Source: Lentisphaerae bacterium GWF2_50_93 (GTDB taxonomy: Bacteria > Verrucomicrobiota > Lentisphaeria > Victivallales > GWF2-50-93). From it: a DNA stretch of 64,000 bases. The position numbers and the translations under genes are program-made. Below are positions 43,560-62,604 of this stretch, piece after piece. The stretch lies in assembly GCA_001804815.1 (NCBI GenBank), contig MHBI01000092.1:62001-126000 (forward strand). The letters run 5' to 3'. Below the pieces are notes generated by a model that was not told the DNA's origin, did not search any database, and saw only the letters and a program-made list of their open reading frames with translations. Numbering within the stretch: position 1 is the stretch's first letter; each line of letters opens with the position of its first letter.

Positions 43560-43574
43560 TTGGAGCTGTATATC

Positions 43575-44291
43575 ATGGGGAAAAATATACTAGAAGACAA
43601 ATCCTATCTGGAAGTGACTTATTCCTTGAAGACGCATCCCAAGGGGCCGTATCCTAGCCGGCTGGCCTGTCATCTGATCAGGAATTACTACGGCAGGCCG
43701 GGGAAGATTCTAGATATCGGTTGCGGGCGCGGAGATTATCTGCAAGTTTTTAAGGATCTGGGTTTTGAGGTGTCAGGTGTAGATATATCTCCATCTATTG
43801 TGGATATGTCCGGAAAATTTGATGTCAGTCGTGTAGATCTTGAAAAGGACGATTTCCCTTATTCTTCAGAGTCATTTGATTTCATCTTCAGCAAGTCCGT
43901 CGTGGAACACATGCGAAATCCCTTTGCTCTGATGGAGAAATCCTATACAGGTCTCAAGAAGGGAGGAGTTGCGGTAATTATGACGCCCAGCTGGGAGCAC
44001 AATTACTGGGGGCCGTTCTACATAGACCATACGCATGTGACTCCTTTTACACGCGCTTCCCTGACTGAATCCATGGTCATCGCCGGATACAAGGATGTTG
44101 AAGTCATATATTTCCACCAGCTTCCTTTTGTATGGAAATATCCTATGTTTAAGCCGTTTGTCAGGCTGTTGTCAGCCATGCCATTGTCATACAGACCTTT
44201 CAACCAGGATGCGAAATGGCCTGAGGGATTCAACAAGCTTGTCAGGTTTTCAAAGGAAGTGATGCTTCTTGGGGTCGGGCATAAGGAATAA
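43575..44291 (+). CDS. SAM-dependent methyltransferase, class I
   Basis: 238 residues from ATG 43575, chosen for GGAG upstream. KILDIGCGRGDYLQVFKDLGFEVSGVDIS is motif I, DDFPYSSESFDFIFSKSVVEHMRNP motif II, and GLKKGGVAVIMTPSW motif III. A C-terminal region rich in aromatic residues may bind a sugar. Its place between NeuB-type and NeuA-type genes suggests a methyl group on the nonulosonate or its precursor. Confidence 0.85.
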   Translation: MGKNILEDKSYLEVTYSLKTHPKGPYPSRLACHLIRNYYGRPGKILDIGCGRGDYLQVFKDLGFEVSGVDISPSIVDMSGKFDVSRVDLEKDDFPYSSESFDFIFSKSVVEHMRNPFALMEKSYTGLKKGGVAVIMTPSWEHNYWGPFYIDHTHVTPFTRASLTESMVIAGYKDVEVIYFHQLPFVWKYPMFKPFVRLLSAMPLSYRPFNQDAKWPEGFNKLVRFSKEVMLLGVGHKE

Positions 44292-44294
44292 CAT

Positions 44295-45059
44295 ATGAAT
44301 GCCGGTATGGGAAAAGCCTATGCGATCATTCCTGCCAGAAGCGGGAGCAAAGGGGTTCCAGGGAAAAACATAAGGCCTCTTAAGGGTCATCCCCTGATCG
44401 CCTACAGCATTGCCGCCGCAAGCCTTTCCAAGGGGATTGACAGGGTGATCGTTTCGACGGATTCGGCTGAAATCGCCGAGATCTCGAGGAAATATGGAGC
44501 AGAGGTGCCTTTCATCAGGCCTGCGGAGTTCGCAAAGGACAGTTCTTCCGACAGGGATTTCATGGTCCATGCGAACCAATGGTTCGAGGCGAATGAGAAG
44601 ATGATGCCTGAATACTGGGTGCACCTTCGTCCCACTACGCCTTTAAGGGATCCGTCTTTGATTGATGATGCCATATCGGCGCTCAAGGCCAGTCCTGAAG
44701 CTTCCTCCCTCCGCTCGGGGCATGAGGCGTCTGAGTCTCCTTTCAAATGGTTCATGACAGATGACAGTGGTTTCTTCGTCCCATTCAGATCTCCTGAAGG
44801 CAAGGACTATTCAAATATGCCAAGGCAGGCATGCCCGAAGGTTTATATACCGGACGGATATGTGGATGTCCTGAGAAGCCGGGTGATAATGATGGAGGAA
44901 ACCATACATGGCGGCCGCGTATATGGATATATAAGCCCCTTCTGCATAGAGGTCGACACCCAGGATGACTTTGATATGCTCAAATACGAGATAGATAAAA
45001 AAGGTCTTCCCATCCTGGAGCATTTGAATAATTTTATCAAAAGGTCGAAGGCAAAATGA
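44295..45059 (+). CDS. acylneuraminate-type CMP transferase
   Basis: 254 residues. The N-terminal nucleotide motif IIPARSGSKGVPGKNIRPL, VSTDSAEIAEISRKYGA and HLRPTTPLRDPSLIDDAI are those of NeuA/KdsB-like cytidylyltransferases; FCIEVDTQDDFDMLKYE closes the fold. It activates a nonulosonic acid with CMP. It partners the NeuB-like gene. The 4-base overlap with the aminotransferase gene shows one operon. Confidence 0.9.
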   Translation: MNAGMGKAYAIIPARSGSKGVPGKNIRPLKGHPLIAYSIAAASLSKGIDRVIVSTDSAEIAEISRKYGAEVPFIRPAEFAKDSSSDRDFMVHANQWFEANEKMMPEYWVHLRPTTPLRDPSLIDDAISALKASPEASSLRSGHEASESPFKWFMTDDSGFFVPFRSPEGKDYSNMPRQACPKVYIPDGYVDVLRSRVIMMEETIHGGRVYGYISPFCIEVDTQDDFDMLKYEIDKKGLPILEHLNNFIKRSKAK

Positions 45060-46330
45060 AAATATCTACCAAGTTCCGGAAAATAAAGGATGATTTCAAT
45101 ATTGAGCCCACAAGGCTGTCAAAGAGATTAAATGAAATGGAACCGGCTGCTGTCCTGAGGCAATTGCCTATCACATGGGCGAGGGCGGAGGATTTCACTG
45201 TATATGACGACAAGGGCAATCAATGGATTGACATGACCTCCGGAATATTTGTCGCTAATGCGGGGCATTCAAATCCATCTATAAAAAAAGCAATTCAGGA
45301 CCAGCTCGATAAAGATCTACTGTTTGCCTATAATTATCCGACGGATATCAGGAATAAGTTCCTGAATAAGATGCTTGATATTTCGCCGAAATCATTCGAC
45401 AAGGTGATACTCCTTAATTCGGGATCTGAAGCAGTTGATATCGCATATAAGCTGATTAAGCAGTGGTCTAGGAAGAATAATCGTAAATACATAATAACTT
45501 TTACAGGAAGCTATCATGGCAGAGGTCTTAGCAATGACTTGATCTGTGGCAGGAAAAACAAGGCTGCATGGTCCGGCGTCGAGGACAAGGACGTTGTCTT
45601 CATTGATTTCCCATATGATGAGAGCACTTCATTTCCAGAAGATAAGATGCCGCCATCGGACGAGATAGCGGCATTTGTCCTCGAGACGTTCCAGGGATGG
45701 GGAGCATGGTTCTATCCTCCAGGTTACCTTGAATCACTTGTGAAGTTTGCCCGCAGATCCGGTGCATTGGTGTGTTTTGATGATTTGCAGGGAGGCTTTT
45801 ACCGGCTTGGGACACTGTATGGCTATCAATCATATGGATTGGACTTTGATCCTGACATCTTATGCCTAGGGAAAGGCCTGTCCTCATCACTGCCAATATC
45901 GGCCGTATTAAGCAGGGCTGACATTACAGAAATAGATACTTATGCCGATTTGCACGGAACTCATTCTGGAAATCCTCTGTGCTGTGCGGCGGCACTGGCC
46001 AATCTGGAATTTTTGTCAGATATGGAATTTCAGGCTGAATTTAAGAAAAGATGCCGGATATTCAAAGATGGGATAAAGAATCTGTCAAGGCACAAGTCAA
46101 TTAGAAGTATCAATGTGCGTGGAATGATCGCCGGCATCATAACGAGCGATGAGGAAGCTGCCACAAGCATTGTCTTCAATGCGATAAAAAGAGGAGTCCT
46201 TACTGTCTGGACACAACGCAATTCTGTAAAGATCGCACCGCCATTGACTATTACCGAAGATGCAATTGCTGAAGCAATTGCCGTACTAGACGAGTCGGTT
46301 TCTGAAAGTGAAAAATTCAGTCGTAAATAA
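45056..46330 (+). CDS. class III PLP-dependent aminotransferase
   Basis: 424 residues. VYDDKGNQWIDMTSGIFVANAGHSNPSI, LNSGSEAVDIAYKL, ITFTGSYHGRG, CFDDLQGGFYRLG and the PLP lysine K273 in LCLGKGLSSSLPISAVLS are all present, as in acetylornithine/GABA-type transaminases. LETFQGWGAWFYPPGYL replaces the usual EPIQGEGG motif with a related form. Substrate could be a keto-sugar or an amino acid precursor for a sugar decoration. Confidence 0.87.
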   Translation: MKISTKFRKIKDDFNIEPTRLSKRLNEMEPAAVLRQLPITWARAEDFTVYDDKGNQWIDMTSGIFVANAGHSNPSIKKAIQDQLDKDLLFAYNYPTDIRNKFLNKMLDISPKSFDKVILLNSGSEAVDIAYKLIKQWSRKNNRKYIITFTGSYHGRGLSNDLICGRKNKAAWSGVEDKDVVFIDFPYDESTSFPEDKMPPSDEIAAFVLETFQGWGAWFYPPGYLESLVKFARRSGALVCFDDLQGGFYRLGTLYGYQSYGLDFDPDILCLGKGLSSSLPISAVLSRADITEIDTYADLHGTHSGNPLCCAAALANLEFLSDMEFQAEFKKRCRIFKDGIKNLSRHKSIRSINVRGMIAGIITSDEEAATSIVFNAIKRGVLTVWTQRNSVKIAPPLTITEDAIAEAIAVLDESVSESEKFSRK

Positions 46331-49445: not shown

Positions 49446-50398
49446 AAATAGCGCTAATAGGCGTCGGGGAGATGGGGCGCGAATACACCAAGGTCCTGAA
49501 GGCTCTTGGTGCAAAAGATGTTTCAGTTATCGGCAGAAGCACCGAGGGATGCAGCCGTTTTTATGAGGCGACAGGTGTCAGGGCAATCCCCGGCGGACTC
49601 GCAGGCTGGCTGAAATCTGCACGTCCGGAAATTGATATTGCTATTGTGGCGGTCAGCGTCGAAGAACTTGCCGGTGTGAGCATTGAACTTCTGGATTATG
49701 GGGTTAAGAGGATACTTTTGGAAAAGCCTGCCGGTCTCAATTCACAGGAAATAGGGAGGGTCAAGAGGAAGGTCGAGGAGAAGAAGGCGCAGGTGATCGT
49801 CGGATATAACAGGCGTTTCTATGCATCTGTATTGAAGGCGCAGGAGATCATACGGGAAGATGGTGGAGTGCTGTCATTCCACTTTGAATTTACGGAATGG
49901 CCGCATACAATTATTCCTCTTGGCCATATCAGCGCAGCTGCCAAGGCCAGCTGGTTCCTTGCAAATTCGAGCCATGTGGCCGATCTCGCCTTCTTTCTCG
50001 GAGGAAAACCCGAAAGGATGACGGCGTTCAAGGCGGGAGGCTGCGACTGGCATCCGTCCGGGACTGTTTTTACGGGTGCAGGTATTTCCAAAACAGGAGC
50101 AATGTTCTCATATTGTGCGAACTGGGATGCTCCGGGACGCTGGGGGGTTGAGATAATGACAAGGAATAGCAGGCTGATTTTCAGGCCAATTGAAAAGTTG
50201 CAAATTCAAAGACAGAAGTCAGTCTCAATAGAACCTGTTGATATAGATTATACCTTGGATACTGCTTTTAAACCAGGACTCTATCTGCAGACAAAATATT
50301 TCATTGAAGATATAATACATCATAATTTCATTGAAATTAATAATCATTTACAAAATTGCGAAAATATTTATATGAAAATAATAAATGCTAATGAATAG
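49442..50398 (+). CDS. Gfo/Idh/MocA-like oxidoreductase (2)
   Basis: 318 residues from ATG 49442 (ATGA overlap with the previous stop); ATG 49430 is an alternative. MKIALIGVGEMGREYTKVLKAL binds NAD(P), LLEKPAGLNSQEIGRVK holds the catalytic Lys (EKP), and the C-terminal half has HISAAAKASWFLANSSHVADLAFFLGG. The last 30 residues are AT-rich and unusual in composition. Together with the preceding gene it may set two stereocentres of the sugar. Confidence 0.82.
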   Translation: MKIALIGVGEMGREYTKVLKALGAKDVSVIGRSTEGCSRFYEATGVRAIPGGLAGWLKSARPEIDIAIVAVSVEELAGVSIELLDYGVKRILLEKPAGLNSQEIGRVKRKVEEKKAQVIVGYNRRFYASVLKAQEIIREDGGVLSFHFEFTEWPHTIIPLGHISAAAKASWFLANSSHVADLAFFLGGKPERMTAFKAGGCDWHPSGTVFTGAGISKTGAMFSYCANWDAPGRWGVEIMTRNSRLIFRPIEKLQIQRQKSVSIEPVDIDYTLDTAFKPGLYLQTKYFIEDIIHHNFIEINNHLQNCENIYMKIINANE

Positions 50399-51590
50399 GC
50401 TTCAAGCAGTAATCTTAGCAGGGGGTAAAGGAACCAGGTTATATCCGATTACCAAGGATATCCCTAAGCCCATGATTGAATTCCATGGAAGGCCATTCAT
50501 ATCATACCTGTTGCAAATGCTCAAGGATAATGGCGTAGAGAAGGTTCTCATGCTTCTTGGCTATCTTCCTGAAAAGATCATGGACTACTGTGGAGATGGA
50601 AAACGCTGGGGACTTGATATCGAATATTCAATCGGAGGCGTAGATGATGATACGGGCACTAGGATCCTGAACGCAAAATCTAAGCTTGATGACACATTCC
50701 TTCTTATGTACTGTGACAATTACTGGCCGATGAATCTTCCAAGAATGAAAAGCCTTTTTGATGCTAACGAATGTGATGCGATGGTCACCGTTTACATGAA
50801 TAAGGATAAATATACCAGGGACAATATTCTAATTGGAGATGATGGATTCATAAGAATTTACGATAAGGAGAGGAAAACTCCGGGATTGAAAGGGGTTGAC
50901 ATAGGATTCCTGATAATGAAGAAAAGATGCATTGATCTCCTGCCTGCCGGAAACATGCATTTTGAGAGGGAGATTTATCCAAGATTATCAGAATCACATA
51001 AGTTCCTGGCGTATCCCACAGAGCACAGGTATTATAGCGTCAGCTCCCATGAAAGGCTTCCCTTCACTAACGAGTTCCTTTCGTTCAAGAAAGCAATTAT
51101 CCTTGACCGTGACGGAGTTCTAAATCGTAAAGCCGAGAAGGCAAGATATGTTTGCACCTGGGAGGATTGGAAATGGCTTCCTGGGGCCGTAGAGGCAATA
51201 AGCCTTCTCAAGAGAAATGGATATTCTGTAATCATTGTTTCCAACCAGGCGGGAATCGCCAGAGGGGCAATGAGAGAAGAAGACCTGAAGCATATTCATT
51301 CAAATATGATTTCCGAACTGAGGAAGGAAGGCGGAGACGTAGACAGGATTTACTATTGTCCGCACGGATGGGATGACGGATGCGAGTGCAGGAAGCCAAA
51401 GCCGGGAATGCTTTTCCAGGCTCAGCGCGCTTTCCATATTGATCTTACCAGGACATTCTTTATAGGAGATGATGAGAGGGATGTCCAGGCTGGACAGGCC
51501 GCCGGATGTAAAACTCTTCTAGTTGACGAACATAATTCGCTGCTGAAACTGGTAAAGGAAATTATCATGGAAAATGAGGTGAATTCATGA
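50391..51590 (+). CDS. heptose 1-phosphate guanylyltransferase fused to heptose bisphosphate phosphatase
   Basis: About 399 residues; starts at 50385 and 50391 are both possible. Residues 1-225 are a nucleotidyltransferase (AVILAGGKGTRLYPITKDIPKPMI, LMYCDNYWP) of the HddC type. Residues about 235-395 are a HAD GmhB phosphatase: AIILDRDGVLNRKAE, VSNQAGIARGAM, the zinc Cys/His block YYCPHGWDDGCECRKPKPGM and FFIGDDERDVQAG. It therefore should remove the C7 phosphate from heptose bisphosphate and make GDP-heptose. The isomerase gene gmhA overlaps its stop. Confidence 0.88.
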   Translation: MNRLQAVILAGGKGTRLYPITKDIPKPMIEFHGRPFISYLLQMLKDNGVEKVLMLLGYLPEKIMDYCGDGKRWGLDIEYSIGGVDDDTGTRILNAKSKLDDTFLLMYCDNYWPMNLPRMKSLFDANECDAMVTVYMNKDKYTRDNILIGDDGFIRIYDKERKTPGLKGVDIGFLIMKKRCIDLLPAGNMHFEREIYPRLSESHKFLAYPTEHRYYSVSSHERLPFTNEFLSFKKAIILDRDGVLNRKAEKARYVCTWEDWKWLPGAVEAISLLKRNGYSVIIVSNQAGIARGAMREEDLKHIHSNMISELRKEGGDVDRIYYCPHGWDDGCECRKPKPGMLFQAQRAFHIDLTRTFFIGDDERDVQAGQAAGCKTLLVDEHNSLLKLVKEIIMENEVNS

Positions 51591-52141
51591 ATTTGTATGA
51601 ACAATATGTTAATAAGATTTCAGCTATGCTGAAAGCTTATGACTGGAGAAATGTTGATTTGCTTGTAGGCGATCTTGTCTACTGTTGGGCAAAAAAAAGA
51701 AGGGTCTTTCTATGTGGCAATGGTGGTAGCGCAGCCAATGCCAACCATCTTGCAAATGATTTAATATATGGAGTGTCTCCGGGCAAGGGTGACGGGATAC
51801 ATGCTGTTTCCCTTTCCAGCAATACATCTGTAATGACATGCATATCTAACGATGTTTCCTATGATGAGATATTTGCTTATCAGTTGTCTGTAATGGCAGA
51901 GAAAAATGATTTGCTCATTGTATTCTCAGGGAGCGGAAATTCGAAAAACATTGTCAACGCTGTCAGAAAAGCAAAGAAGATGGGATTGAAGACATATGCG
52001 GTTATCGGATTTACAGGTGGAAAGGTCAAGGATATTGTTGACGTTCCTATTCATTTTCCAATAAATGACATGCAGATCTCAGAAGACTGCCAGCAGATAG
52101 TCGGACATATGATAATGAAGAGGATTCTCAACATTAAATGA
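51587..52141 (+). CDS. gmhA: sedoheptulose 7-phosphate isomerase
   Basis: 184 residues of SIS fold: FLCGNGGSAANANHLANDLIYG, SNTSVMTCISNDVSYDEIFAYQL, VFSGSGNSKNIVNAV and the C-terminal EDCQQIVGHMIM with the active Glu/His region. It turns sedoheptulose 7-phosphate into D-glycero-D-manno-heptose 7-phosphate, the first step of heptose synthesis. It overlaps genes on both sides by 4 bases. Confidence 0.92.
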   Translation: MNLYEQYVNKISAMLKAYDWRNVDLLVGDLVYCWAKKRRVFLCGNGGSAANANHLANDLIYGVSPGKGDGIHAVSLSSNTSVMTCISNDVSYDEIFAYQLSVMAEKNDLLIVFSGSGNSKNIVNAVRKAKKMGLKTYAVIGFTGGKVKDIVDVPIHFPINDMQISEDCQQIVGHMIMKRILNIK

Positions 52142-53175
52142 ATAAAATACTCATAACTGGCAACAATGGCTACATAGGAACTGTTCTGACACATTTCCTC
52201 AAAGGTAAAGGCTATTATATAAAAGGTATTGACGCAGATTATTTTGAAGGTTTTGCTCAGAATGGATATGAAAAATCCGACGAGCAATGTATTAAAGATA
52301 TAAGGGACATAACAGTTGATGACATCAAAGGATGTGATTTTATCATACATCTGGCAGCCCTTTCGAATGATCCTCTTGGTGAATTTGATCCTGTCTTAAC
52401 TGAGGAGATAAATTACAAGGCTACGGTCAGCCTGGCGGATAAGGCTAGAAAGTCTTCAGTAGGAAGATTCATCTATTCTTCTTCCCAGAGCATGTATGGT
52501 GTGTCTGACACAGATGAAGAACTAGAAGAGGACAACAGCAAAAAGAATCCAGTCACTGCATATGCGCGTACCAAATGGGAGGCCGAACAGAAAATAAAAG
52601 CGTTATCAGGGAATGGTTTCACAGTTGCATGTCTTAGACCCTCCACTGTTTTTGGAAGAAGCCCTAAGTTCAGATGTGACATTGTCTTTAACAATCTTGT
52701 AGCATGTGCATTTACGACAGGTAGGATAGTTGTTAAAAGCGATGGTACTCCATGGCGTCCAGTTGTTCATGTACATGATGTATGTAAGGCGTTTCATGCA
52801 ATGATCGATGCACCGGAGGAACTGGTTTCGGGGGAGTCTTTCAATGTTGGAATAGCGAATGGGAATTTTACCGTCAGGGAGCTGGCAGAAGCCGCTGCAA
52901 AGGCAGTTCCTGGCTGTGAACTTGTATTTACAGGAGAACACACTGATTCAAGGACTTACAAGGTAAGCTTCAACAAGATATTGAATAAGATGGTGGATTA
53001 TTATAAACCCGAATGGAATTTGGAAAATGGAGGCAAGGAATTAGTGGAATTCTTCAGGGAGATCAACTTGACGGAAGAGGAATTCAAGGGAAGAAGGACG
53101 AATCGTCTGGCGCAACTGAAATATCTTGTAGATAACAAAATATTGGATAGGAAATTTCATAGGATCAATGAATAA
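52138..53175 (+). CDS. NAD-dependent sugar epimerase/dehydratase
   Basis: 345 residues of extended SDR fold. ILITGNNGYIGTVLTHFL is the NAD motif, IYSSSQSMYGVSD the catalytic Ser region, YARTKWEAEQK the Tyr-x3-Lys, and RPSTVFGRSPKFRCDIVFNNL the substrate loop. PWRPVVHVHDVCKAF is typical of the WbpP/Gne-like group. Its substrate is probably the GDP-heptose or its keto derivative, judged by the gmhA overlap. Confidence 0.85.
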   Translation: MNKILITGNNGYIGTVLTHFLKGKGYYIKGIDADYFEGFAQNGYEKSDEQCIKDIRDITVDDIKGCDFIIHLAALSNDPLGEFDPVLTEEINYKATVSLADKARKSSVGRFIYSSSQSMYGVSDTDEELEEDNSKKNPVTAYARTKWEAEQKIKALSGNGFTVACLRPSTVFGRSPKFRCDIVFNNLVACAFTTGRIVVKSDGTPWRPVVHVHDVCKAFHAMIDAPEELVSGESFNVGIANGNFTVRELAEAAAKAVPGCELVFTGEHTDSRTYKVSFNKILNKMVDYYKPEWNLENGGKELVEFFREINLTEEEFKGRRTNRLAQLKYLVDNKILDRKFHRINE

Positions 53176-54403
53176 TAAGCTTTTTAAAAAGATAAATTCC
53201 TGCAGGATATGCGGAAATGATGATTTGGCAATAGTTCTGGATCTAGGAGACCAGCCTCCGGCTAATTCCCTGAGGGACAATATTGAAGAAGAACTGCCCA
53301 GAATCCCGCTTCAGCTTGCCTGCTGTCGCTTATGCGGGGCGGCTCAACTTTCAGTATCTGTCAATCCGGAGTATCTTTTCAAACACTATGTCTGGGTTAC
53401 CGGAACTGCGGAAACAACTAGGAAATATAGTATCGAGTTCTGTAGCAGGATGCTTGAAAGGCTGCCGTTAGGGAGACCTCTTAAAATTATAGAAGTCGCC
53501 AGCAATGACGGAACTTTTCTTAAGCCTTTCAAGGTAAAAGGACACGAACTGCTGGGAATTGATCCTGCTGAGAACATTGTGAAAATGGCAAACGAAGATG
53601 GGATAAATACCATATCTGAATTTTTCAGTTCAGAGTTAGCCGGAAAAATTATTTCCGGTTTCGGAGAGGCCGACTGCATATTTGCAAGAAATGTCGTACC
53701 CCATGTGGAGGATGCACACGATGTAATTGAGGGAATGGGCAGGTGTTTGGATGAAAAAGGGTTAGGAGCAATCGAGTTCCATTATGCAGGAACTATCCAC
53801 AATGAACTTCATTATGATTCAATTTATCATGAACATAACCTATATCTTTCACTCTCATGCCTCTCAAAAATGCTTGAAAAGCATGGTTTGTTTTGCTTTG
53901 ATATTTCCGAAAGTCCAATAAGTGGTGGATCCATTGTGGCTTATTTCTCAAAACACAGGCGGGAACAGAGCGAGAACTTCAAGAAAAAGATATTGCGCGA
54001 AAAGAATGACAATCTTAATTCCGTATCTGCCTGGATCGATTTTTCAAGAAGAGCTGTCAAACATAAGGATGAACTGCTAAATTTAATAAAGGGAGTACCA
54101 TCGAAAATGATCGGATATGGAGCCTCGGCCAGAAGTTCGACAATTCTGAACTTCTGTGGAATTGACAGGAGAGTATTGTCATGTATTGCTGATAATAGCC
54201 CCTTGAAGCAAGGGAAATACACTCCTGGAACGGATATCAAGATCTTTTCTCCTGATATTGCTTTCCAGTCAAAACCAGAATCAGTATTGCTTCTTGCCTG
54301 GAACTTCAGTGATGAAATCCTCAGGGAGTTGCATGATAAATATGAATTCTCAGGAACTGTTGTAGTACCATTTCCAGGTAATCCAAGAATCCCAAAGAGT
54401 TAA
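53168..54403 (+). CDS. sugar C-methyltransferase with zinc ribbon (TylC3-like)
   Basis: 411 residues in the three-part layout of NDP-4-keto-sugar C3-methyltransferases: an N-terminal zinc ribbon (CRICGNDDLAIVLDLGDQPPANSL and CRLCGAAQ), a SAM domain (IEVASNDGTFLKPF, ARNVVPHVEDAHDVIEGM), and a C-terminal Rossmann-like domain (MIGYGASARSSTILNFCGI, AWNFSDEI). YHEHNLYLSLSCLSKML carries the conserved Tyr-His/Glu-His active residues. It adds a methyl branch to a keto sugar. Confidence 0.9.
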   Translation: MNNKLFKKINSCRICGNDDLAIVLDLGDQPPANSLRDNIEEELPRIPLQLACCRLCGAAQLSVSVNPEYLFKHYVWVTGTAETTRKYSIEFCSRMLERLPLGRPLKIIEVASNDGTFLKPFKVKGHELLGIDPAENIVKMANEDGINTISEFFSSELAGKIISGFGEADCIFARNVVPHVEDAHDVIEGMGRCLDEKGLGAIEFHYAGTIHNELHYDSIYHEHNLYLSLSCLSKMLEKHGLFCFDISESPISGGSIVAYFSKHRREQSENFKKKILREKNDNLNSVSAWIDFSRRAVKHKDELLNLIKGVPSKMIGYGASARSSTILNFCGIDRRVLSCIADNSPLKQGKYTPGTDIKIFSPDIAFQSKPESVLLLAWNFSDEILRELHDKYEFSGTVVVPFPGNPRIPKS

Positions 54404-54404
54404 A

Positions 54405-54947
54405 ATGATTTTTAAAGAACAGAAAATAAAAGGCGTATTCCTGATCGAGCATGAACCTTTTTCAGATCATCGCGGAAAGTTGGAGAGGCATTTTTGTGCA
54501 AAGGAATATGAGGATGCCGGCATCAATCCCAGAATTTGCCAGACCAATTTATCCTATAATACATGCAAGGGGACACTAAGGGGTTTCCATTATCAAAAAC
54601 CTCCGAATGCCGAATGCAAGACCATTTCATGCCTCAAAGGTGAAATATATGATATAGTCGTTGATTTAAGGGGTGATTCAAAGACATTCATGCAATGGCA
54701 ATCATTCACACTTGGAGAGTCGCAGCAATCGTCCTTATATCTTCCCGGTGGATGTGCAAATGCATTTCTGACAATAAAGGATGAAACCGTGGTACTTTAC
54801 TACATGTCCGAATTTTATGCTCCTGATTCCTACTGCGGGCTCCGCTATGATGATCCCATTTTCAGGTTCAGATGGCCGGAGAATCCGGCAGTTCTTTCAG
54901 AGAAGGACAGGAACTATCCGGATTTCAATAGGGATGGTCTAAAATAA
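54405..54947 (+). CDS. dTDP-4-dehydrorhamnose 3,5-epimerase family protein (1)
   Basis: 180 residues of RmlC jelly roll. SDHRGKLERHFCAKEY, RICQTNLSYNTCKGTLRGFHYQKPPNAECK with the catalytic His in RGFHYQ, IYDIVVDLRGDSKTFMQW and LYLPGGCANAFLTIKDETVVLYYMSE are all present. It epimerises a 4-keto nucleotide sugar at C3 and/or C5. Substrate could be the GDP-keto-heptose. It partners the preceding C-methyltransferase and the following reductase. Confidence 0.9.
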   Translation: MIFKEQKIKGVFLIEHEPFSDHRGKLERHFCAKEYEDAGINPRICQTNLSYNTCKGTLRGFHYQKPPNAECKTISCLKGEIYDIVVDLRGDSKTFMQWQSFTLGESQQSSLYLPGGCANAFLTIKDETVVLYYMSEFYAPDSYCGLRYDDPIFRFRWPENPAVLSEKDRNYPDFNRDGLK

Positions 54948-55843
54948 TGAGAGTTCTTGTCACAGGTGCTGATGGCTTTATAGGAGGACATGTACTTGAG
55001 AGACTGCTTGCTTCCGGGCATGAAGTGCTTGCTGTGGCATTAGGTGAAACTGAGGTGTCATCCGGTTTCAAATCTGTAAAATGGTTCTTTGGAGACATCT
55101 CTAATACATCTGAAATAAAAAAGCATGTAATATCATATGACCCAGAAGCAATGATTCATCTTGCCTGGGAAGGCATTCCTGACTATGGATATGATATGTC
55201 AAGGAGGAATATTGACATCTCCTTAGGCATATCCAATCTAGTGATTGATAATTCTTGTTGCAGAAAGATAATATCCACTGGAAGCTGCTGGGAATATGGG
55301 AATAGAAAGGGCGTATGCATGGAATCGGATGCAATTGCTGCAGATTCATATTTCTCATGGGCAAAGAGCTCTGTCAATGGATATTTAGGGATCAAGTGCA
55401 AAGAGCATAAGATTGATTTCAAATGGTTGAGGCTCTTTTATGTTTATGGACCGGGCCAGAAGGAAAAGTCCATTATCCCATCCATAATCAGAGCCTTTAC
55501 CGAAGGAAGACATCCGGAGATCAGAAATCCTGCAAACAGAAACGATTATATATATGTCAAGGATGTAGCTGATGCGATATTTCTTGCATTGGAAAAGAAC
55601 ACGGATAACATCATTTATAATGTAGGAAGTGGCAGGTCGGTTCCTGCTTATGAAGTTGCTGGAACCATAGCATCGGAAATGAAGTGCGTTTATGAACCGG
55701 GAACAGGATCCGGGAACGGACAGCATGAAGACTTCTGGGCTGACACAACACGAATACACAGCGATCTAGGGTGGAAACCTGAATATTCACTTGAAAAAGG
55801 CATTCTAGAGACGATAAGATACTTTAAGAAAAGGTGTTATTAA
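54947..55843 (+). CDS. NAD-dependent sugar reductase/epimerase
   Basis: 298 residues. VLVTGADGFIGGHVLERLLASGHEV is the NAD(P) motif, ISTGSCWEYG the Ser region, and YFSWAKSSVNGYLG takes the place of the Tyr-x3-Lys region (SWAKSS). FYVYGPGQKEKSIIPSII is the substrate loop. Such short SDRs usually reduce the C4 keto group at the end of deoxysugar pathways. It starts within the stop of the 3,5-epimerase gene (TAATG). Confidence 0.82.
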   Translation: MRVLVTGADGFIGGHVLERLLASGHEVLAVALGETEVSSGFKSVKWFFGDISNTSEIKKHVISYDPEAMIHLAWEGIPDYGYDMSRRNIDISLGISNLVIDNSCCRKIISTGSCWEYGNRKGVCMESDAIAADSYFSWAKSSVNGYLGIKCKEHKIDFKWLRLFYVYGPGQKEKSIIPSIIRAFTEGRHPEIRNPANRNDYIYVKDVADAIFLALEKNTDNIIYNVGSGRSVPAYEVAGTIASEMKCVYEPGTGSGNGQHEDFWADTTRIHSDLGWKPEYSLEKGILETIRYFKKRCY

Positions 55844-55845
55844 TT

Positions 55846-56844
55846 ATGATTATATCAAGAACTCCCATGAGGGTAAGTTTTGCCGGGGGCGGTACTGATT
55901 TTGCTGATTATTATCTTGAACATGGAGGTGCAGTAATAAGTACTGCTATAAACAAATATATTTATATTACTGTAAATAAAAAGTTCGATGATCTCATAAG
56001 GGTCAGTTATTCATCCACTGAAATTGTTGATTCAGTTGACAAAGTACAGCATAATATTATTAGAGAGGCGCTTAAACTTCTGAAAATAGGCAAGGGCATT
56101 GAAGTTGTCTACATGGGGGATATCCCATTGGGAACTGCTGGAATTGGCCTTGGTTCATCAAGCAGTCTTGCGGTGGGCGTCCTGAACGCGCTTCATGCAT
56201 ATAAAGGTGAACATGTTTCAGCAGATAGGCTTGCAAGGGAGGCATGCGAAATAGAAATCAACATATTGAAGAATCCCATAGGCAAACAGGATCAGTATAT
56301 CGCCGCTTATGGAGGTTTACAGCACATTAGGTTCAACAGGGACGACACTGTTTTTGTTGATCCGATAATATGCAAGGAAGACACAAAGCGCATGCTTAAA
56401 GCCAAGCTGATGCTTTTCTATACTGGAATTACCAGAATCTCCTCATCGATTCTTACGGAACAGAAATCCAAGACAAAAGTCAACAAGGGATATCTTGAAA
56501 ACATATATTCATTGTCTCAGGAAATGCTAAATTGCATGATAGAAAACAAATTCGACAGGGTTGGGGATATACTCAACAAGGGATGGATATTGAAAAGGAA
56601 TCTTGCATCAGGCATAAGCACATCAGAAATAGACGATTACTATTATAAAGCGTTGAAGTCCGGCGCAAAGGGTGGCAAGCTTCTTGGAGCGGGAGGAGGA
56701 GGATTTCTTCTCTTTTACTGTGACCAGGAAAAACAGGACAATGTTAGAAAGGAACTTTCTGGTTTAAAGGAAGTCCTATTTGCATTTGAGCCGCAGGGAA
56801 GCAAAATAATCTATATAAGCGATTGCGACCAGTCGTTAAGCTAA
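55846..56844 (+). CDS. hddA: D-glycero-alpha-D-manno-heptose 7-phosphate kinase (GHMP family)
   Basis: 332 residues from ATG 55846. SRTPMRVSFAGGGTDFADYY is the HddA-type N-terminus, LGTAGIGLGSSSSLAVGVLNALHA the phosphate-binding loop (GLGSSSS), NPIGKQDQYIAAYGGLQHIRF the catalytic Asp region, and KLLGAGGGGFLLFYC the last motif. It phosphorylates heptose 7-phosphate at C1. With GmhA and the HddC-GmhB fusion it completes the GDP-heptose route in this operon. Confidence 0.9.
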   Translation: MIISRTPMRVSFAGGGTDFADYYLEHGGAVISTAINKYIYITVNKKFDDLIRVSYSSTEIVDSVDKVQHNIIREALKLLKIGKGIEVVYMGDIPLGTAGIGLGSSSSLAVGVLNALHAYKGEHVSADRLAREACEIEINILKNPIGKQDQYIAAYGGLQHIRFNRDDTVFVDPIICKEDTKRMLKAKLMLFYTGITRISSSILTEQKSKTKVNKGYLENIYSLSQEMLNCMIENKFDRVGDILNKGWILKRNLASGISTSEIDDYYYKALKSGAKGGKLLGAGGGGFLLFYCDQEKQDNVRKELSGLKEVLFAFEPQGSKIIYISDCDQSLS

Positions 56845-56859
56845 AAATGGAGAGTATGT

Positions 56860-57594
56860 GTGAAAATTAAAATTGTTGAACATGATCGGGAGAAGGAAAT
56901 TGACATATACAGCAAGGAAGGTCTTCTTCTGATTTCAGAGCTTTGGACAAAGGTTTCATGCCATAACCGCCTAATGTATGAGCCTAGTTGGCTTGGAATA
57001 CCTATAATCCAGTTCCCTGAAGATATTGTCATTATGCAAGAATTAATATGGAAGATAAGACCGGATGTTATTGTTGAAACAGGAGTGGCTCATGGAGGTT
57101 CTGCAATACTCTACTCCTCAATCCTTGAAATCATAGGAAAGGGGAAAGTCATAGCTGTTGACATAGAGATAAGACAATATAATAAAATTGCAATTAAAAG
57201 CCATCCCTTATCGAAGAGGATCAATTTGATTGAAGGCAGTTCAACTGATGAAAAGATATTTGAAGATGTTAAACGCCTTATTAATAAAGGAGATAAGGTT
57301 CTTGTGGCTTTGGACTCAAGCCATTCTTACAACCATGTTCTTAAAGAGCTGGACATGTATTCTAAAATTGTGCCCGAGGACAGCTATCTCGTTGCAATGG
57401 ATGGCGCACAAGCGCAGGCGTGGGACCTACCGTCGGGGAAAAAAGAATGGAAAGATGACAATCCATTGAAAGCCATAGAGGACTTCCTTTCCACTCATCC
57501 TGGCTGGGAGTCCGACCCCTATTACAACCGACTCGTAGTTACATCTAATCCGAGGGGTTTTCTTCGTAGAAAGCAAGACAACAAAAACTATTAA
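56860..57594 (+). CDS. CmcI/rhamnosyl O-methyltransferase-like protein
   Basis: 244 residues, GTG start. WLGIPIIQFPEDIVIMQELIWKIRPDVIVETGVAHGGSAILYSSIL is the family's SAM-binding opening. KVIAVDIEIRQYN and VALDSSHSYNHVLKELDMYSKIV (metal Asp/Ser-His motif) follow, with LVAMDGAQAQAWDLPSG. Members O-methylate sugars in a metal-dependent way. Here it likely methylates a heptose hydroxyl. Confidence 0.87.
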   Translation: MKIKIVEHDREKEIDIYSKEGLLLISELWTKVSCHNRLMYEPSWLGIPIIQFPEDIVIMQELIWKIRPDVIVETGVAHGGSAILYSSILEIIGKGKVIAVDIEIRQYNKIAIKSHPLSKRINLIEGSSTDEKIFEDVKRLINKGDKVLVALDSSHSYNHVLKELDMYSKIVPEDSYLVAMDGAQAQAWDLPSGKKEWKDDNPLKAIEDFLSTHPGWESDPYYNRLVVTSNPRGFLRRKQDNKNY

Positions 57595-57603
57595 AATTCA
57601 TGC

Positions 57604-58362
57604 ATGACTTTTAACCTCAAAAACAAAAAGATTCTGATTACTGGGGCTTCCTCTGGAATTGGCGCGCGTATTGCTGAAACTCTAGCTGATGCGGGTGCAA
57701 TTGTTGGAATTCACTATAATAAGAATAAAACAGTAGCGGAGCAGATCTTTGAAAAGTTGAAAAATGATGAATGCAAAGCTTTTCTTATTCACGGAGACTT
57801 ATTGAAAATACATGTCCAGAAAACTCTTGTTGACAATTTTATAAATAAAGCGGGTGGAATTGATGTTCTTGTAAACAACGCAGCAGCAGTTTTTGAATAT
57901 AAAGATCCCCTTGAGCTCTCCGATGACTCTCTGGATAAATCCATCTCCTTGAACTTCAAAGCCCCATATTATCTTTCTGCAAGCGCATTTGAGCACATGA
58001 AAAGGAGTGGTGGAGGAAAGATTATAAACATTAGTACTGCCGCTGTAAAATACGGAGGGAGCCTCAAGGGGCTCCATTACGCAGCTTCAAAAGCAGCACT
58101 GGAGTCTCTTACTAGAGGATTCTCAAGAGAAGGAGCTAGATATAATATTCTTGTCAATTCTATCCGTTGCGGTTTAATTGAAACTGATATGCGAAAGAAA
58201 ATCAAAGGATATTCTGAGAAGCGTTTCAAGGAAAGAATCAAGATGATACCTCTTGGACATCCGGGAAAGACTTCGGATATAGCAGACATGGTTTTATTTT
58301 TATGTTCTAGTTCGGGGAATTTTATCACAGGAGATATAATTACCATTGCGGGTGGAGATTGA
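57604..58362 (+). CDS. short-chain dehydrogenase/reductase
   Basis: 252 residues, classical SDR. ILITGASSGIGARIAETLADAG binds NAD(P), DVLVNNAAAV the NNAG-like motif, NISTAAVKYGGSLKGLHYAASKAALESL carries Ser, Tyr and Lys (YAASK). The C-terminal segment LVNSIRCGLIETDMRKK is typical. Substrate unknown; in this setting probably a keto sugar or its branch. Confidence 0.9.
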   Translation: MTFNLKNKKILITGASSGIGARIAETLADAGAIVGIHYNKNKTVAEQIFEKLKNDECKAFLIHGDLLKIHVQKTLVDNFINKAGGIDVLVNNAAAVFEYKDPLELSDDSLDKSISLNFKAPYYLSASAFEHMKRSGGGKIINISTAAVKYGGSLKGLHYAASKAALESLTRGFSREGARYNILVNSIRCGLIETDMRKKIKGYSEKRFKERIKMIPLGHPGKTSDIADMVLFLCSSSGNFITGDIITIAGGD

Positions 58363-58426
58363 AGAGGATATCAATCAAAAATAATTTACTTGAGAAATAT
58401 TTATTTTTTAATTTAAGGTGTTATCA

Positions 58427-59305
58427 ATGAAAATATTCATCACAGGTTCGTCCAGTTTTGTAGGCAGGGAGCTGATAAGACAATGCAGATCAAGCAATAT
58501 TGAATATCTGGGAGTTGATAAAGTATCATCTGATTTACCAAACTGCCATATTGCAGACATATGTAGCAAGGAAATATTCGATCTGATTCCGATCAATTGT
58601 GATGCAATTGTCCATCTTGCAGCATTGTCCCGGGATGGGGACTGTAAGAACAATGCATATAATTGTTTCAATATCAATGTAATGGGAACTCTCAACCTTA
58701 TTGATGCTGCAATAAAAAGGAATGTAAAGCAGTTCATTTTTGCCTCAACCGAGTGGGTATATGGGAAATTTGATAAAGATGAAATAAAAAATGAGCAATC
58801 TCATATTGACATTTCCACCATCAGTTCCGAATATGCTTTGTCAAAACTCGTAAGTGAGTCAAATCTTAGGCAGAAATACCAACATGGTTTCTGTCATACA
58901 ACAATTTTGCGTTTTGGTATCATATATGGACCAAGAAAGGATAACTGGTCGGCTGTGGAATCATTATTGAGCGCAGTGAAGAACAAGCCTTTTGTCCAAG
59001 TTGGCTCTCTTGCTACTTCAAGATGCTTTATCCATGTAGGAGACATAGCTTCAGGCATCATCAAATCCGTAGGACTAAATGGATTTAATATAATAAATCT
59101 CGAAGGGGAATTGCCCGCGACCACATTGGGACAGATCATTGGAGAAGGGAAAATAATATTTAAAACAGATCCTAAGATTGAAGAGACAAACGCATCTAAT
59201 CCTAACGTTCGAATGGTTTCAAACCAAAAAGCAAAAGATGTTATAGGGTGGGAAACTAAAATATCCTTGCCTGCAGGGATAGAAAGCATTGTAGAATTCA
59301 TATAA
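58427..59305 (+). CDS. NAD-dependent sugar epimerase/dehydratase
   Basis: 292 residues from ATG 58427, with AAGG 8 bases upstream; GTG 58418 is less likely. IFITGSSSFVGRELIRQC is the nucleotide motif, FASTEWVYGKFD the Ser region, YALSKLVSESNLRQ the Tyr-x3-Lys, and LRFGIIYGPRKDNWSAVESLL the substrate loop. Start of a small subgroup (epimerase, methyltransferase, 3,5-epimerase) with more AT-rich codons than the genes before it. Confidence 0.85.
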   Translation: MKIFITGSSSFVGRELIRQCRSSNIEYLGVDKVSSDLPNCHIADICSKEIFDLIPINCDAIVHLAALSRDGDCKNNAYNCFNINVMGTLNLIDAAIKRNVKQFIFASTEWVYGKFDKDEIKNEQSHIDISTISSEYALSKLVSESNLRQKYQHGFCHTTILRFGIIYGPRKDNWSAVESLLSAVKNKPFVQVGSLATSRCFIHVGDIASGIIKSVGLNGFNIINLEGELPATTLGQIIGEGKIIFKTDPKIEETNASNPNVRMVSNQKAKDVIGWETKISLPAGIESIVEFI

Positions 59306-60156
59306 TGATTCCTATGAGCAAAAACAGAACATGCATTATATGTGGATCTCCTGATCACTTTTTGATATTTGCGTATGATAAACCAGATAAATATGAAATT
59401 TCACTTGGGATATCCGGAACGGACTATTCAAGAAAATGGGTCAAGTGCAATGAATGTGGTTTTTATTATTCTATCAGCTCTGAAATGACTTCTGTAAGAG
59501 AAATCTATGAAAGCCTATACCGAGGCAAGAACTCTCCTTGGAGAAAGGAATCCAACGAAACCATCTTTGAAAAAGTGATAAATCTTCCTGAATCTGAGTC
59601 TGAAACGAAAAAACGGATAAAATGGATTAAAGGTAGAGTAATATCCACTTGGAAGGAAATATATGGCATCACCCATTTCCCTCCTTACCGCCTGCTGGAT
59701 ATCGGAGGAGGAACTGGAGTGTTTTCATATGAATTCCAGGATTCCGAATGGAAGGCATGTATCATAGATCCGGATTCCAGCGGAGGATTCCTCAGTGAAA
59801 AGCATGGCATAGAGTATATACAAAAAATGTATAGTCCGAGGCTTGCCACTGGCCCATTCGACCTTTTTTCACTTGTCTTTGTACTAGAACATATCGAAGA
59901 TCCTGAGGATATCTTAAGAAAGATTCGGACGGAAATGAATGATGAAAGTCTCATATATATCGAAGTGCCTGACTCAGTAGCATTTAGGCACAAACCTCCC
60001 GAGGATGATATTTTTAATTCCTGCCATCTATGGTTCTTTACAGCTTTCTCAATAGCCCGTCTCCTTGACCGATGCGGAATGGAGATATTTCATATGAAAC
60101 GGACAAAAACCATCCGTGGACATTTTTCAATGATGTTGATTGCTGGTATAAAATGA
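59305..60156 (+). CDS. zinc-ribbon SAM-dependent methyltransferase
   Basis: 283 residues. CIICGSPDHFLIFAYDKP and VKCNECGFYY are the ribbon, RLLDIGGGTGVFSYEFQDSEWKACIIDPD the SAM motif, LVFVLEHIEDPEDILRKIR and IYIEVPDSVAF the following strands. The layout matches the methyltransferase at 47620. It overlaps the epimerase stop by one base and the next gene's start by four, so it probably acts on the same sugar. Confidence 0.86.
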   Translation: MIPMSKNRTCIICGSPDHFLIFAYDKPDKYEISLGISGTDYSRKWVKCNECGFYYSISSEMTSVREIYESLYRGKNSPWRKESNETIFEKVINLPESESETKKRIKWIKGRVISTWKEIYGITHFPPYRLLDIGGGTGVFSYEFQDSEWKACIIDPDSSGGFLSEKHGIEYIQKMYSPRLATGPFDLFSLVFVLEHIEDPEDILRKIRTEMNDESLIYIEVPDSVAFRHKPPEDDIFNSCHLWFFTAFSIARLLDRCGMEIFHMKRTKTIRGHFSMMLIAGIK

Positions 60157-60719
60157 ATATAACTCCCTCAAGATTAAAAGGAGTATTTGAAGTAAAAGGA
60201 GAAATCCATAAGGACTTCAGAGGCAAGCTGGCAAGGACATTTGATTTCAGATGGCTACAGGATTCTGGTATATCTTTCAATTCCCTTCAGGAGAGCATCT
60301 CGTATTCTGAAAAGAAATACACTTTGAGAGGAATTCATGTTTCCCTGCCTCCCTTCAGCGAAGGAAAACTCATTGCTCCTATTTCTGGAACGGTGCAGTG
60401 GATGCTCCTAGACTTGAGAAAAGGAAGCAGCACCTATAAGGAATGGATAAGTATGATTCTTTCTGAAGATGAAAATATCGGAATCTTGGTGCCTAAGGGA
60501 TTTGCTCACGGATGCCTTTCTTTGACCGACAAATGCAGTCTGCTCATAAAATCCGACAGCTACTTTTCGGCAGACAGTGGAACAGGCATATTATGGAAAG
60601 ATCCTTTATTAGACATAAAATGGCAACTTGATGGTAATAATCCAATAATTTCGGAAAGGGATTCATCCTATAAGGATTTCATTCATTTCGAAAGCAAATA
60701 CGGAGGAGTCCAAGTTTAA
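60153..60719 (+). CDS. dTDP-4-dehydrorhamnose 3,5-epimerase family protein (2)
   Basis: 188 residues from ATG 60153 (ATGA overlap). DFRGKLARTFDFRWLQDSGI, QESISYSEKKYTLRGIHVSLPPFSEGKLIAP (RGIHV with the catalytic His), VQWMLLDLRKGSSTYKEW and LVPKGFAHGCLSLTDKCSLLIKSD follow the RmlC fold. It differs from the copy at 54405 at many positions (for instance RGIHVS against RGFHYQ), so the two likely use different keto sugars. Confidence 0.87.
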   Translation: MNITPSRLKGVFEVKGEIHKDFRGKLARTFDFRWLQDSGISFNSLQESISYSEKKYTLRGIHVSLPPFSEGKLIAPISGTVQWMLLDLRKGSSTYKEWISMILSEDENIGILVPKGFAHGCLSLTDKCSLLIKSDSYFSADSGTGILWKDPLLDIKWQLDGNNPIISERDSSYKDFIHFESKYGGVQV

Positions 60720-60736
60720 TATTAGGAGTAAATCGT

Positions 60737-61672
60737 ATGTTATCAATTGAACAAAAACATAAAATAGTAAGGCGCCTTATAAAACTGAGGATTGGACAGA
60801 TAATTATAAACGAAAAATATAGGAAAGGATCATTCAAGGTACCAATACATCTTGCATTTGGACATGAGGCAATAGCCATTGCAACCAATTTTGTACGCGC
60901 GAAAGGGGACTTCCTGGTTCTTAGCCATAGGAACATCCAATATAATCTTGACAGTGCCCTCTCGTTAAGACACCATATTCATGAATATATGCTTAGCCCT
61001 ACTGGTACTTCACATGGGAAACACGGTTCAATGAACCTTATGAATCCAAGGGAAGGAATTGTATATACTTCAAGCATCCTTGGGAACAATCTCAGTGTGG
61101 GAACCGGACTTTCTTTGAGCCAGAAGATTAAAGGACTTGAGAATTCTGTAACTTTTGTTGTCACCGGAGATGGCGCCATGGAAGAGGGAACATTTTATGA
61201 AAGTATTGAATTTTCAAAAAGCAATAGGCTGCCGTTGCTGATAATAATTGAAAACAATGAATGGTCGCTTGCGACCAAAAGACATGAACGCAGATGCAAC
61301 ATCGAATTGAAGAAATTATCTGAAGCTTTTGGATCTGGATATTCACATCTGACCGGCAACAATGTTTTCCATTATATTGATGAACTTCAAAAAGCCAGGG
61401 CAAACGCATTGAAGAACTTATGCCCATGGTGTATCGAGGTTCAAATTTCAACTCTTGGTGATTGGCGTATGAAAACGCAGGAACATCCAGATGGTAAATT
61501 TGTTAACTACCATGGAGGGCCTGCACCGACAGTTGAACTAGCAAAAGGCATATATATTGAGAATGACAGCAGGGATCCTGTTCATGTCATTTCCTGTGAA
61601 TTTGGTGAAGAATTTATTAGGAAGATGGAGTCGGAAATATTGAATGAAGTAAAGATGGATATAGAAATATGA
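60737..61672 (+). CDS. thiamine-diphosphate dehydrogenase E1 alpha-like subunit
   Basis: 311 residues. LAFGHEAIAIATNFVRAKGDFLVLSHRNIQYNL and HGKHGSMNLMNPREGIVYTSSILGNNLSVGTGLSL match E1 alpha chains. The ThDP motif GDGAMEEGTFYESIEFSKSNRLPLLIIIENNEWS is complete (GDG to NN). No lipoyl E2 or E3 gene is near, so it is not a classical oxoacid dehydrogenase. In a sugar operon an E1 pair may transfer a two-carbon acyl unit to a keto sugar, as proposed for AviB1/AviB2 of avilamycin. Confidence 0.88.
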   Translation: MLSIEQKHKIVRRLIKLRIGQIIINEKYRKGSFKVPIHLAFGHEAIAIATNFVRAKGDFLVLSHRNIQYNLDSALSLRHHIHEYMLSPTGTSHGKHGSMNLMNPREGIVYTSSILGNNLSVGTGLSLSQKIKGLENSVTFVVTGDGAMEEGTFYESIEFSKSNRLPLLIIIENNEWSLATKRHERRCNIELKKLSEAFGSGYSHLTGNNVFHYIDELQKARANALKNLCPWCIEVQISTLGDWRMKTQEHPDGKFVNYHGGPAPTVELAKGIYIENDSRDPVHVISCEFGEEFIRKMESEILNEVKMDIEI

Positions 61673-62604
61673 ACTACATATCTTATATAAACAGTGTCAT
61701 TTCAGACGAGGTTTCGAAAAGAGAGAAAATTGTACTTTTCGGGCAAAATATCAGTGCCGGTTCATGTATTTCCGGATTCACGCGCGGACTTAAGCCTGGG
61801 GAGCGCAGCATGATCATAAACACTCCAAATGTTGAGAATACTCAGACTGGTGTAGGTTTCGGACTCATGCTTGGAGGAGTTTCATCGGTGTTTTTCGTAA
61901 AACAGCTTGATTTTATGCTGTTAGGTATGGATCACATAGTTAATACCTATAATCTGATACGTAAGGATGTTCCAAAGGCGTCTTTTACAATTATGCCTGT
62001 CGTAGTTGATTCTGGTTACGAGGGACCTCAGTCAAGCTGTAATCATCTTTCTGATTTTTGTTCGATTTCCCATGTAGATGGATTTACAATCACCAACAAA
62101 CATGATGCTGATTACTTATTGAAGAACGAGATGTTCAGACCCGGATTCAGAATTATCTCAATAAGCCAGAGACTTTTCAAGACCAATATTATTGAATTTG
62201 ATAAGGAAGCAGAGGCGATGGAAGGAGGGAGAATGTATAAATATCTCTCTGGAAATGATGCATTGGTGGTTTGCTTTAACTTTTCACTGCCTCAAGGACT
62301 GGATCTTTGCAACAGCTTGCAAAAAAAGAAGATCGACTGTTCCCTCATCAGTATAAACACTCTTTTGCCATTTGCATGGGACAAGGTGCTGGAAGTTGCC
62401 GGAAAGACAAACCGCAAGGTGATTATCCTGGATGATTCTAAAAGTGCCAATGTCTCATCTATGGCGCTCAGGTGTTCATTGCTTGAAAATGGATGTGTCG
62501 ATAAGATGCTGTATTTGAAAAGGGAATTTTCCGAAGAATGGTTTATTCCAAATCCAGATTCATTTGTCATCAACCATGATCATGTGATTAATTATCTTTT
62601 TTGA
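61669..62604 (+). CDS. thiamine-diphosphate dehydrogenase E1 beta-like subunit
   Basis: 311 residues. VLFGQNISAGSCISGFTRGL, IINTPNVENTQTGVGFGLMLGGVSSVFFVKQLDFMLLGMDHIVNTYNLI and the C-terminal transketolase-type domain (DALVVCFNFSLPQGLDLCNSLQ, INTLLPFAWDKVLEVAGKTNRKVIILDD) fit an E1 beta chain. The Glu that activates thiamine is probably the one in VENTQTGVGFG. It overlaps the alpha gene by 4 bases and would form an alpha2beta2 enzyme. Confidence 0.87.
   Translation: MNYISYINSVISDEVSKREKIVLFGQNISAGSCISGFTRGLKPGERSMIINTPNVENTQTGVGFGLMLGGVSSVFFVKQLDFMLLGMDHIVNTYNLIRKDVPKASFTIMPVVVDSGYEGPQSSCNHLSDFCSISHVDGFTITNKHDADYLLKNEMFRPGFRIISISQRLFKTNIIEFDKEAEAMEGGRMYKYLSGNDALVVCFNFSLPQGLDLCNSLQKKKIDCSLISINTLLPFAWDKVLEVAGKTNRKVIILDDSKSANVSSMALRCSLLENGCVDKMLYLKREFSEEWFIPNPDSFVINHDHVINYLF

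Follow-up and report, generated by a model that had tools for sequence, protein, structure and literature searches.

A two-chain E1-like ThDP enzyme pair in a predicted GDP-heptose cassette of a Lentisphaerae bacterium

The window, as the whole stretch of DNA analyzed is called here, covers 64,000 nucleotides from Lentisphaerae bacterium GWF2_50_93 (C92:62001-126000); the assembly comprises 6.4 Mb in 120 contigs and is 91% complete. The genes from 50385 to 62604 all share a strand and either overlap or are separated by short gaps, and the last two encode an E1-alpha/E1-beta-like pair (Table 1). Both E1 reading frames are whole, as the initial annotation had stated, and they overlap at an ATGA. 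The epimerase, methyltransferase and 3,5-epimerase that it placed ahead of the pair were also found, as the SDR epimerase epiC, the class I methyltransferase and an RmlC-type epimerase. For RmlC-type epimerase 2, the reading frame opens at 60072, and the ATG at 60153, which overlaps the previous stop, is the likelier start. Directly after the pair, at 62622-65845, are a B12-binding radical SAM gene and two more radical SAM genes, the last part of which extends beyond the window. This order recurs in two related loci (L052 and L062), and parts of it are seen in three others (L054, L055 and L061). Upstream of the cassette, at 42717-46330, a separate ulosonic-acid-type module was recognized by eye from a NeuB-like synthase, a CMP-sugar-synthetase-like NTase and a class III aminotransferase.

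Table 1. Genes of the cassette in the window, named by homology. Occurrence was counted over 21 related loci, several of which are cut by contig ends.
Gene or product	Coordinates	Strand	Matches and motifs	Related loci
hddC-gmhB, fused guanylyl/nucleotidyltransferase + HAD phosphatase	50385..51590	+	PF00483 + HAD families	17/21
gmhA, sedoheptulose-7-P isomerase (SIS)	51587..52141	+	PF13580	9/21
epiA, Cj1427-like GDP-heptose C4-dehydrogenase	52138..53175	+	best PDB match 6vo6/6vo8, 129 bits	17/21
NDP-4-keto-sugar 3-C-methyltransferase (TylC3 type)	53168..54403	+	PF08421/PF08484; 4rv9, 222 bits	15/21
RmlC-type C3/C5 epimerase 1	54405..54947	+	PF00908, 182 bits; GDP-4-keto-heptose epimerases 8dco/8db5, 65 bits	
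epiB, SDR reductase/epimerase	54947..55843	+		16/21
hddA, heptose-7-phosphate kinase (GHMP)	55834..56844	+	3k85, 4usm, 4n3o, 125-137 bits	18/21
CmcI/rhamnosyl O-methyltransferase-like	56860..57594	+	PF04989, 228 bits	18/21
SDR ketoreductase, optional module	57604..58362	+	PF13561	5/21
epiC, SDR reductase/epimerase	58418..59305	+	S/T-Y-K catalytic residues conserved	18/21
Class I methyltransferase, optional module	59305..60156	+	PF13489	4/21
RmlC-type epimerase 2	60153..60719	+	PF00908, 146 bits	
E1-alpha-like subunit	60737..61672	+	311 aa; ThDP/Mg binding; invariant GDGAMEEG...ENN and H259	
E1-beta-like subunit	61669..62604	+	311 aa; catalytic E56 kept; no conserved His	20/21

The initial annotation overlooked that the upstream part of the locus, 50385-56844, is by homology a GDP-heptose pathway: GmhA, HddA, HddC, GmhB, a C4-dehydrogenase and an RmlC-type epimerase are encoded together there. 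The closest solved relatives of hddA were 3k85 and 4usm. The match of epiA to 6vo6/6vo8, which we take to be structures of Cj1427, was far above its other PDB matches. The C-methyltransferase was closest to D-mycarose 3-C-methyltransferase (4rv9), the substrate of which is a 4-keto sugar. A role for epiC as a 4,6-dehydratase was considered and dropped, as its STEWVY motif does not have the Asp-Glu pair held by the motif of RmlB. Cj1427 oxidizes GDP-D-glycero-manno-heptose at C4 to GDP-4-keto-heptose, and its NADH is re-oxidized by the conversion of alpha-ketoglutarate to L-2-hydroxyglutarate (PMC10680097). With hddC-gmhB, gmhA, hddA and a Cj1427-like SDR present, the locus therefore appears equipped for GDP-4-keto-heptose, the kind of ketone that a ThDP carboligase would attack.

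The alpha protein matched PF00676 (E1_dh) at 91 bits (7.9e-26; cut-off 22). The beta protein is divergent, with 30 bits for PF02780 and no match to PF02779, and only 3 or 4 of the 21 beta family members reached either transketolase domain model. Predicted models of both chains had a pLDDT of 90, and their best comparisons were made with human PDH, giving a Z of 32.5 for alpha against E1-alpha 1ni4_A (281 residues, 2.1 A) and 29.4 for beta against E1-beta 1ni4_B (304 residues, 2.9 A). These predicted folds clearly settle the pair as E1-alpha/E1-beta-like ThDP proteins. The fold, the ThDP motif, the catalytic Glu and the alpha-His are common to the pair and to the E1 components of pyruvate and branched-chain dehydrogenases (1ni4, 1um9 and 1w85), whereas the window's pair has no E2 nearby, no conserved His128-beta and only 15-21% identity over the structural alignment. 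In a phylogenetic tree, the pair formed a separate clade on a long stem with a support of 1.0. Two other identities were rejected: transketolase, since the transketolase models gave 25-34 bits against cut-offs of 488-788, and a YerE-type enzyme, since the two chains match PF00676 and PF02780 and do not form a single-chain ThDP protein of the decarboxylase superfamily.

A lipoyl or E2 match was not detected in the window, in the 20 kb preceding it, in the 26 kb following it or in any of the 21 related loci; in two control loci, this search did recover the E2. PF00198 (E2) had a single match in the whole assembly, on contig C101, adjoining a fused E1 of 772 aa. The claim that no lipoyl acyltransferase lies near the pair thus held, and the flanks did not contain the E2 just outside the window that had been named beforehand as evidence against it. 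A dehydrogenase complex with an E2 nearby was rejected on these grounds. The same genome has a further canonical-type E1 alpha/beta pair (G000:C99:14017-15464; L003, L008), yet only the one E2 gene on C101 was found.

Across the family, the alpha ThDP motif (G144DGAMEEG...ENN174), alpha H259 and beta E56 were invariant or nearly so. In a profile alignment, alpha H259 was paired with the His found in the active site of canonical alpha subunits; about 16 extra residues lie just ahead of it in the window's lineage and none in the acidobacterial lineage. His128-beta was a His in 37 of 37 canonical E1-beta proteins, and there was no conserved His column in the 21-member family. The placement of this site is based on sequence alignments (MAFFT, HMMER and hhalign) and the residue varies with the alignment, with S123, S122, N125 or H126 found opposite His128-beta by MAFFT, hhalign, ungapped reading and HMMER. 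The window's beta protein is alone in having H126, near the His128-beta site, so the loss of this residue is an argument at the level of the family. Work on the G. stearothermophilus E1 assigns to His128-beta, a residue that every known E1 shares, the probable role of proton donor when lipoate is acetylated, a step for which it is considered necessary; decarboxylation was intact when it was changed to Gln and harmed when it was changed to Asn (PMC2663715). As read from these alignments, the loss of His128-beta is consistent with an enzyme that has ceased to serve lipoate. One lost active-site His would be a simple and testable account of how a dehydrogenase subunit became a free carboligase.

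Relatives were sought by scanning 84,980 species genomes with E1-alpha as the sole query. The scan returned 21 relatives with 37-52% identity and one distant match. The relatives come from two archaeal bins and no fewer than eight bacterial groups, among them Desulfovibrionaceae, Nitrospirae, Magnetococcales, Alphaproteobacteria, Sulfuritalea, Bacteriovorax, Marinimicrobia, Acidobacteria and Spartobacteria; because nearly all are MAGs, individual taxon assignments may err. Most of the 21 loci have an RmlC gene, seven being closest to rmlC2 and six to rmlC1. One locus (L065) retains only epiC, E1a and E1b within 10 kb, and another (L066; G398:C41:137650-143509) has a second, frame-disrupted E1-beta copy about 5 kb from the intact one. 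Single-protein searches across the window's own phylum found no close relative. When three phyla were searched with an E1-beta profile, members of the group-1 family were found only in the centre genomes (1/296, 1/297 and 1/297); the remaining matches scored 104-118 bits and at least part of them belong to a second E1 class. As roughly 300 genomes from each of these phyla yielded no further group-1 members, the cassette is considered rare and its distribution scattered, a pattern that horizontal transfer would be expected to leave. No relative was found in the viral contigs searched and no DNA match in E. coli genomes, and the plasmid and phage matches were other E1 classes or complete dehydrogenase operons.

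Co-evolution was examined by comparing distance matrices (Mantel). Correlations were 0.84 for E1a-E1b, 0.79 for E1a-epiC, 0.74 for E1b-C-MT and 0.73 for E1b-epiB, all with a p of 0.001, but gmhA gave r values of only 0.19 and 0.04 with the E1 pair, which were not significant. The tightest co-evolution among the cassette genes was therefore between E1-alpha, E1-beta and epiC, and epiC is the gene most tightly linked to the pair.

Three known systems resemble parts of this cassette. Enzymes of the YerE type serve LPS sugars, and E1-type alphaKADH2 enzymes serve secondary metabolites, using pyruvate as the donor to place C2 branches at C3 or C4 (PMC12247030, a 2025 review). The antibiotic two-chain enzymes transfer acetyl from pyruvate onto keto-sugars (PMC12247030, PMC4425429), and Pau11/Pau12, homologues of AviB1/AviB2, are the proposed adders of the two-carbon branch in paulomycin (PMC4425429). 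Like the window's pair, AviB1/AviB2, Pau11/Pau12 and KbDH-alpha/beta are two-chain E1-like ThDP proteins encoded without an E2 in a keto-sugar gene cluster, and their use of pyruvate and a ketone has been proposed or shown. These enzymes belong to antibiotic clusters, whereas the window's pair belongs to a GDP-heptose cassette of mostly uncultured bacteria and two archaeal bins. The pair probably works like them, a likeness drawn from descriptions rather than from sequence comparison. YerE, ErwE and their relatives share with the proposed pair the placing of an acyl branch on an NDP-4-keto sugar of surface polysaccharides by a ThDP enzyme, but they are single proteins of the decarboxylase superfamily with a CDP-dideoxyhexose acceptor, in contrast to the window's E1 alpha/beta. 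Campylobacter jejuni (GmhA, HddA, Cj1427, Cj1430 and C4-reductases) shares with the window its GDP-heptose front end, its C4-dehydrogenase and its RmlC-type epimerases. The Campylobacter loci reduce the C4 ketone, with neither C-branching nor C-methylation mentioned (PMC10680097), whereas the window adds a C-methyltransferase and the E1 pair.

On balance, we favor the pair being a dedicated, E2-independent two-chain ThDP carboligase within the GDP-heptose pathway. Since the same gene set recurs in about twenty scattered microbes, the pair probably builds a branched sugar. The Cj1427-like SDR would oxidize C4, the TylC3-type enzyme would place a methyl on C3 and the RmlC-type enzymes would set the C3/C5 stereochemistry. 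The E1-like pair would then decarboxylate a 2-oxoacid, most likely pyruvate, and join the resulting acyl anion to the carbon of the 4-keto group, which would become a tertiary alcohol with a two-carbon branch. It is somewhat probable that the unit added at C4 of GDP-4-keto-(3-C-methyl)heptose is acetyl and that epiC or another SDR subsequently reduces the branch; the CmcI-like enzyme could carry out an O-methylation. The product would be a C-branched, C-methylated surface-glycan sugar of C9-C10. Genes, folds, motifs, cassette conservation and co-evolution were observed, and from them we infer each of the reactions as well as the donor, the position on the acceptor and the product. The initial annotation had proposed an E2-free ThDP sugar brancher making an octose or a larger sugar. 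The first part gains support from the cassette in more than 20 genomes, the co-evolution with an SDR, the predicted GDP-4-keto-sugar genes and the apparent loss of the lipoate-transfer His. Of the second, the larger sugar would stand and the octose itself would not, because a sugar that is most likely a GDP-linked heptose would give C9-C10.

Several findings do not sit well with the carboligase reading. Consumption of the C4 ketone would leave the roles of all the SDRs unaccounted for; gmhA is present in only nine loci and has a tree that does not follow that of E1; L065 is reduced to epiC and the pair; the residue opposite His128-beta shifts with the alignment, and the window's own protein has H126; and Asn, the residue that one alignment places at the His128-beta site, hurt decarboxylation in the G. 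stearothermophilus E1. Another 2-oxoacid could serve as the donor, and a sugar phosphate or an aldehyde as the acceptor. One alternative is that the branch is placed elsewhere than C4, at another carrier stage or from a longer 2-oxoacid such as 2-oxobutyrate or hydroxypyruvate. The donors of YerE-type enzymes are varied, alphaKADH2 enzymes branch at C3 or C4 (PMC12247030) and the branching of paulomycin was proposed to follow glycosyl transfer (PMC4425429). We nevertheless regard this as unlikely, given that the two-chain E1 branchers described so far take C2 donors only (PMC12247030), that the C4-dehydrogenase is a source of the ketone and that C3 is probably methylated.

Another explanation is that the pair acts upstream in the manner of transketolase or DXS, extending an aldose phosphate by a two-carbon unit. 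The resulting ketose phosphate, an unusual one such as an octulose, would then be turned into a GDP-sugar by GmhA, HddA, GmhB and HddC. Most cassette loci do encode enzymes of sugar-phosphate activation, the fold is common to DXS and transketolase, and a split transketolase occurs in one related glycan locus (L076 13809-15526), where the N and C halves are separate genes and an E1 pair is also present. The C4-dehydrogenase and C-methyltransferase point instead to 4-keto-sugar chemistry. Because the family match is to 2-oxoacid E1 and not to transketolase, and because epiC tracks the pair and gmhA does not, such an upstream role is disfavored and seems rather improbable. Least credible, and in our view very improbable, is an ordinary 2-oxoacid or acetoin dehydrogenase E1 that was brought to a glycan locus by horizontal transfer and uses the genome's distant E2/E3: the E1 fold and ThDP motif and the one E2 elsewhere in the genome agree with it, but the cassette is conserved in 20 other genomes without a nearby E2, His128-beta is not conserved as His and the pair occupies its own long-stemmed clade.

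With the carboligase reading preferred, the pair marks a heptose-modification cassette that is transferable and undescribed, and is not a lone odd pair. The open-access literature searched gave no description of an E1 pair from a gene cluster for heptoses or envelope glycans, which is weak evidence but agrees with the initial statement that such pairs are little described. We know of no earlier case in which E1-type branching is joined to GDP-heptose metabolism. We propose more tentatively, and with somewhat less than even confidence, that the widely transferred cassette produces surface monosaccharides of a new class, in which a GDP-heptose bears both a 3-C-methyl and a two-carbon branch (about C10), by means of an E1-derived ThDP carboligase that has lost lipoate transfer and arose independently of YerE. 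If this is true, E1-type branching chemistry would extend to envelope glycans and would no longer be confined to antibiotic clusters. C-branched and higher-carbon sugars are rare antigens and parts of antibiotics, and ThDP enzymes that form tertiary alcohols are sought as biocatalysts. A GDGAMEEG E1-alpha adjoining epiC and hddA provides a sequence handle for finding more.

A second class of E1 pairs, which keeps the beta-His and falls in a different clade from the window's pair, was also found in heptose loci, namely on the Solidesulfovibrio plasmid pDMC1 and in L075 and L076, both from the phylum of L052. These loci carry a Cj1427-like dehydrogenase and gmhA, and three of them also have an L-2-hydroxyglutarate-oxidase-like gene. 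In L075 (10928-16669) and L076 (3207-12998), all three genes accompany an E2-free second-class pair. The L-2-hydroxyglutarate-oxidase-like enzyme may recycle the alpha-ketoglutarate used by the Cj1427-like dehydrogenase. Because two divergent E1 classes keep the same company, the link between E1 chemistry and GDP-keto-heptoses is strengthened. A single-chain E1-like/transketolase-like fusion protein was also seen in a sugar cluster of the cyanophage Synechococcus phage S-SM2 (L043 11950-13158), which also holds phosphoheptose isomerase genes and a Zn alcohol dehydrogenase.
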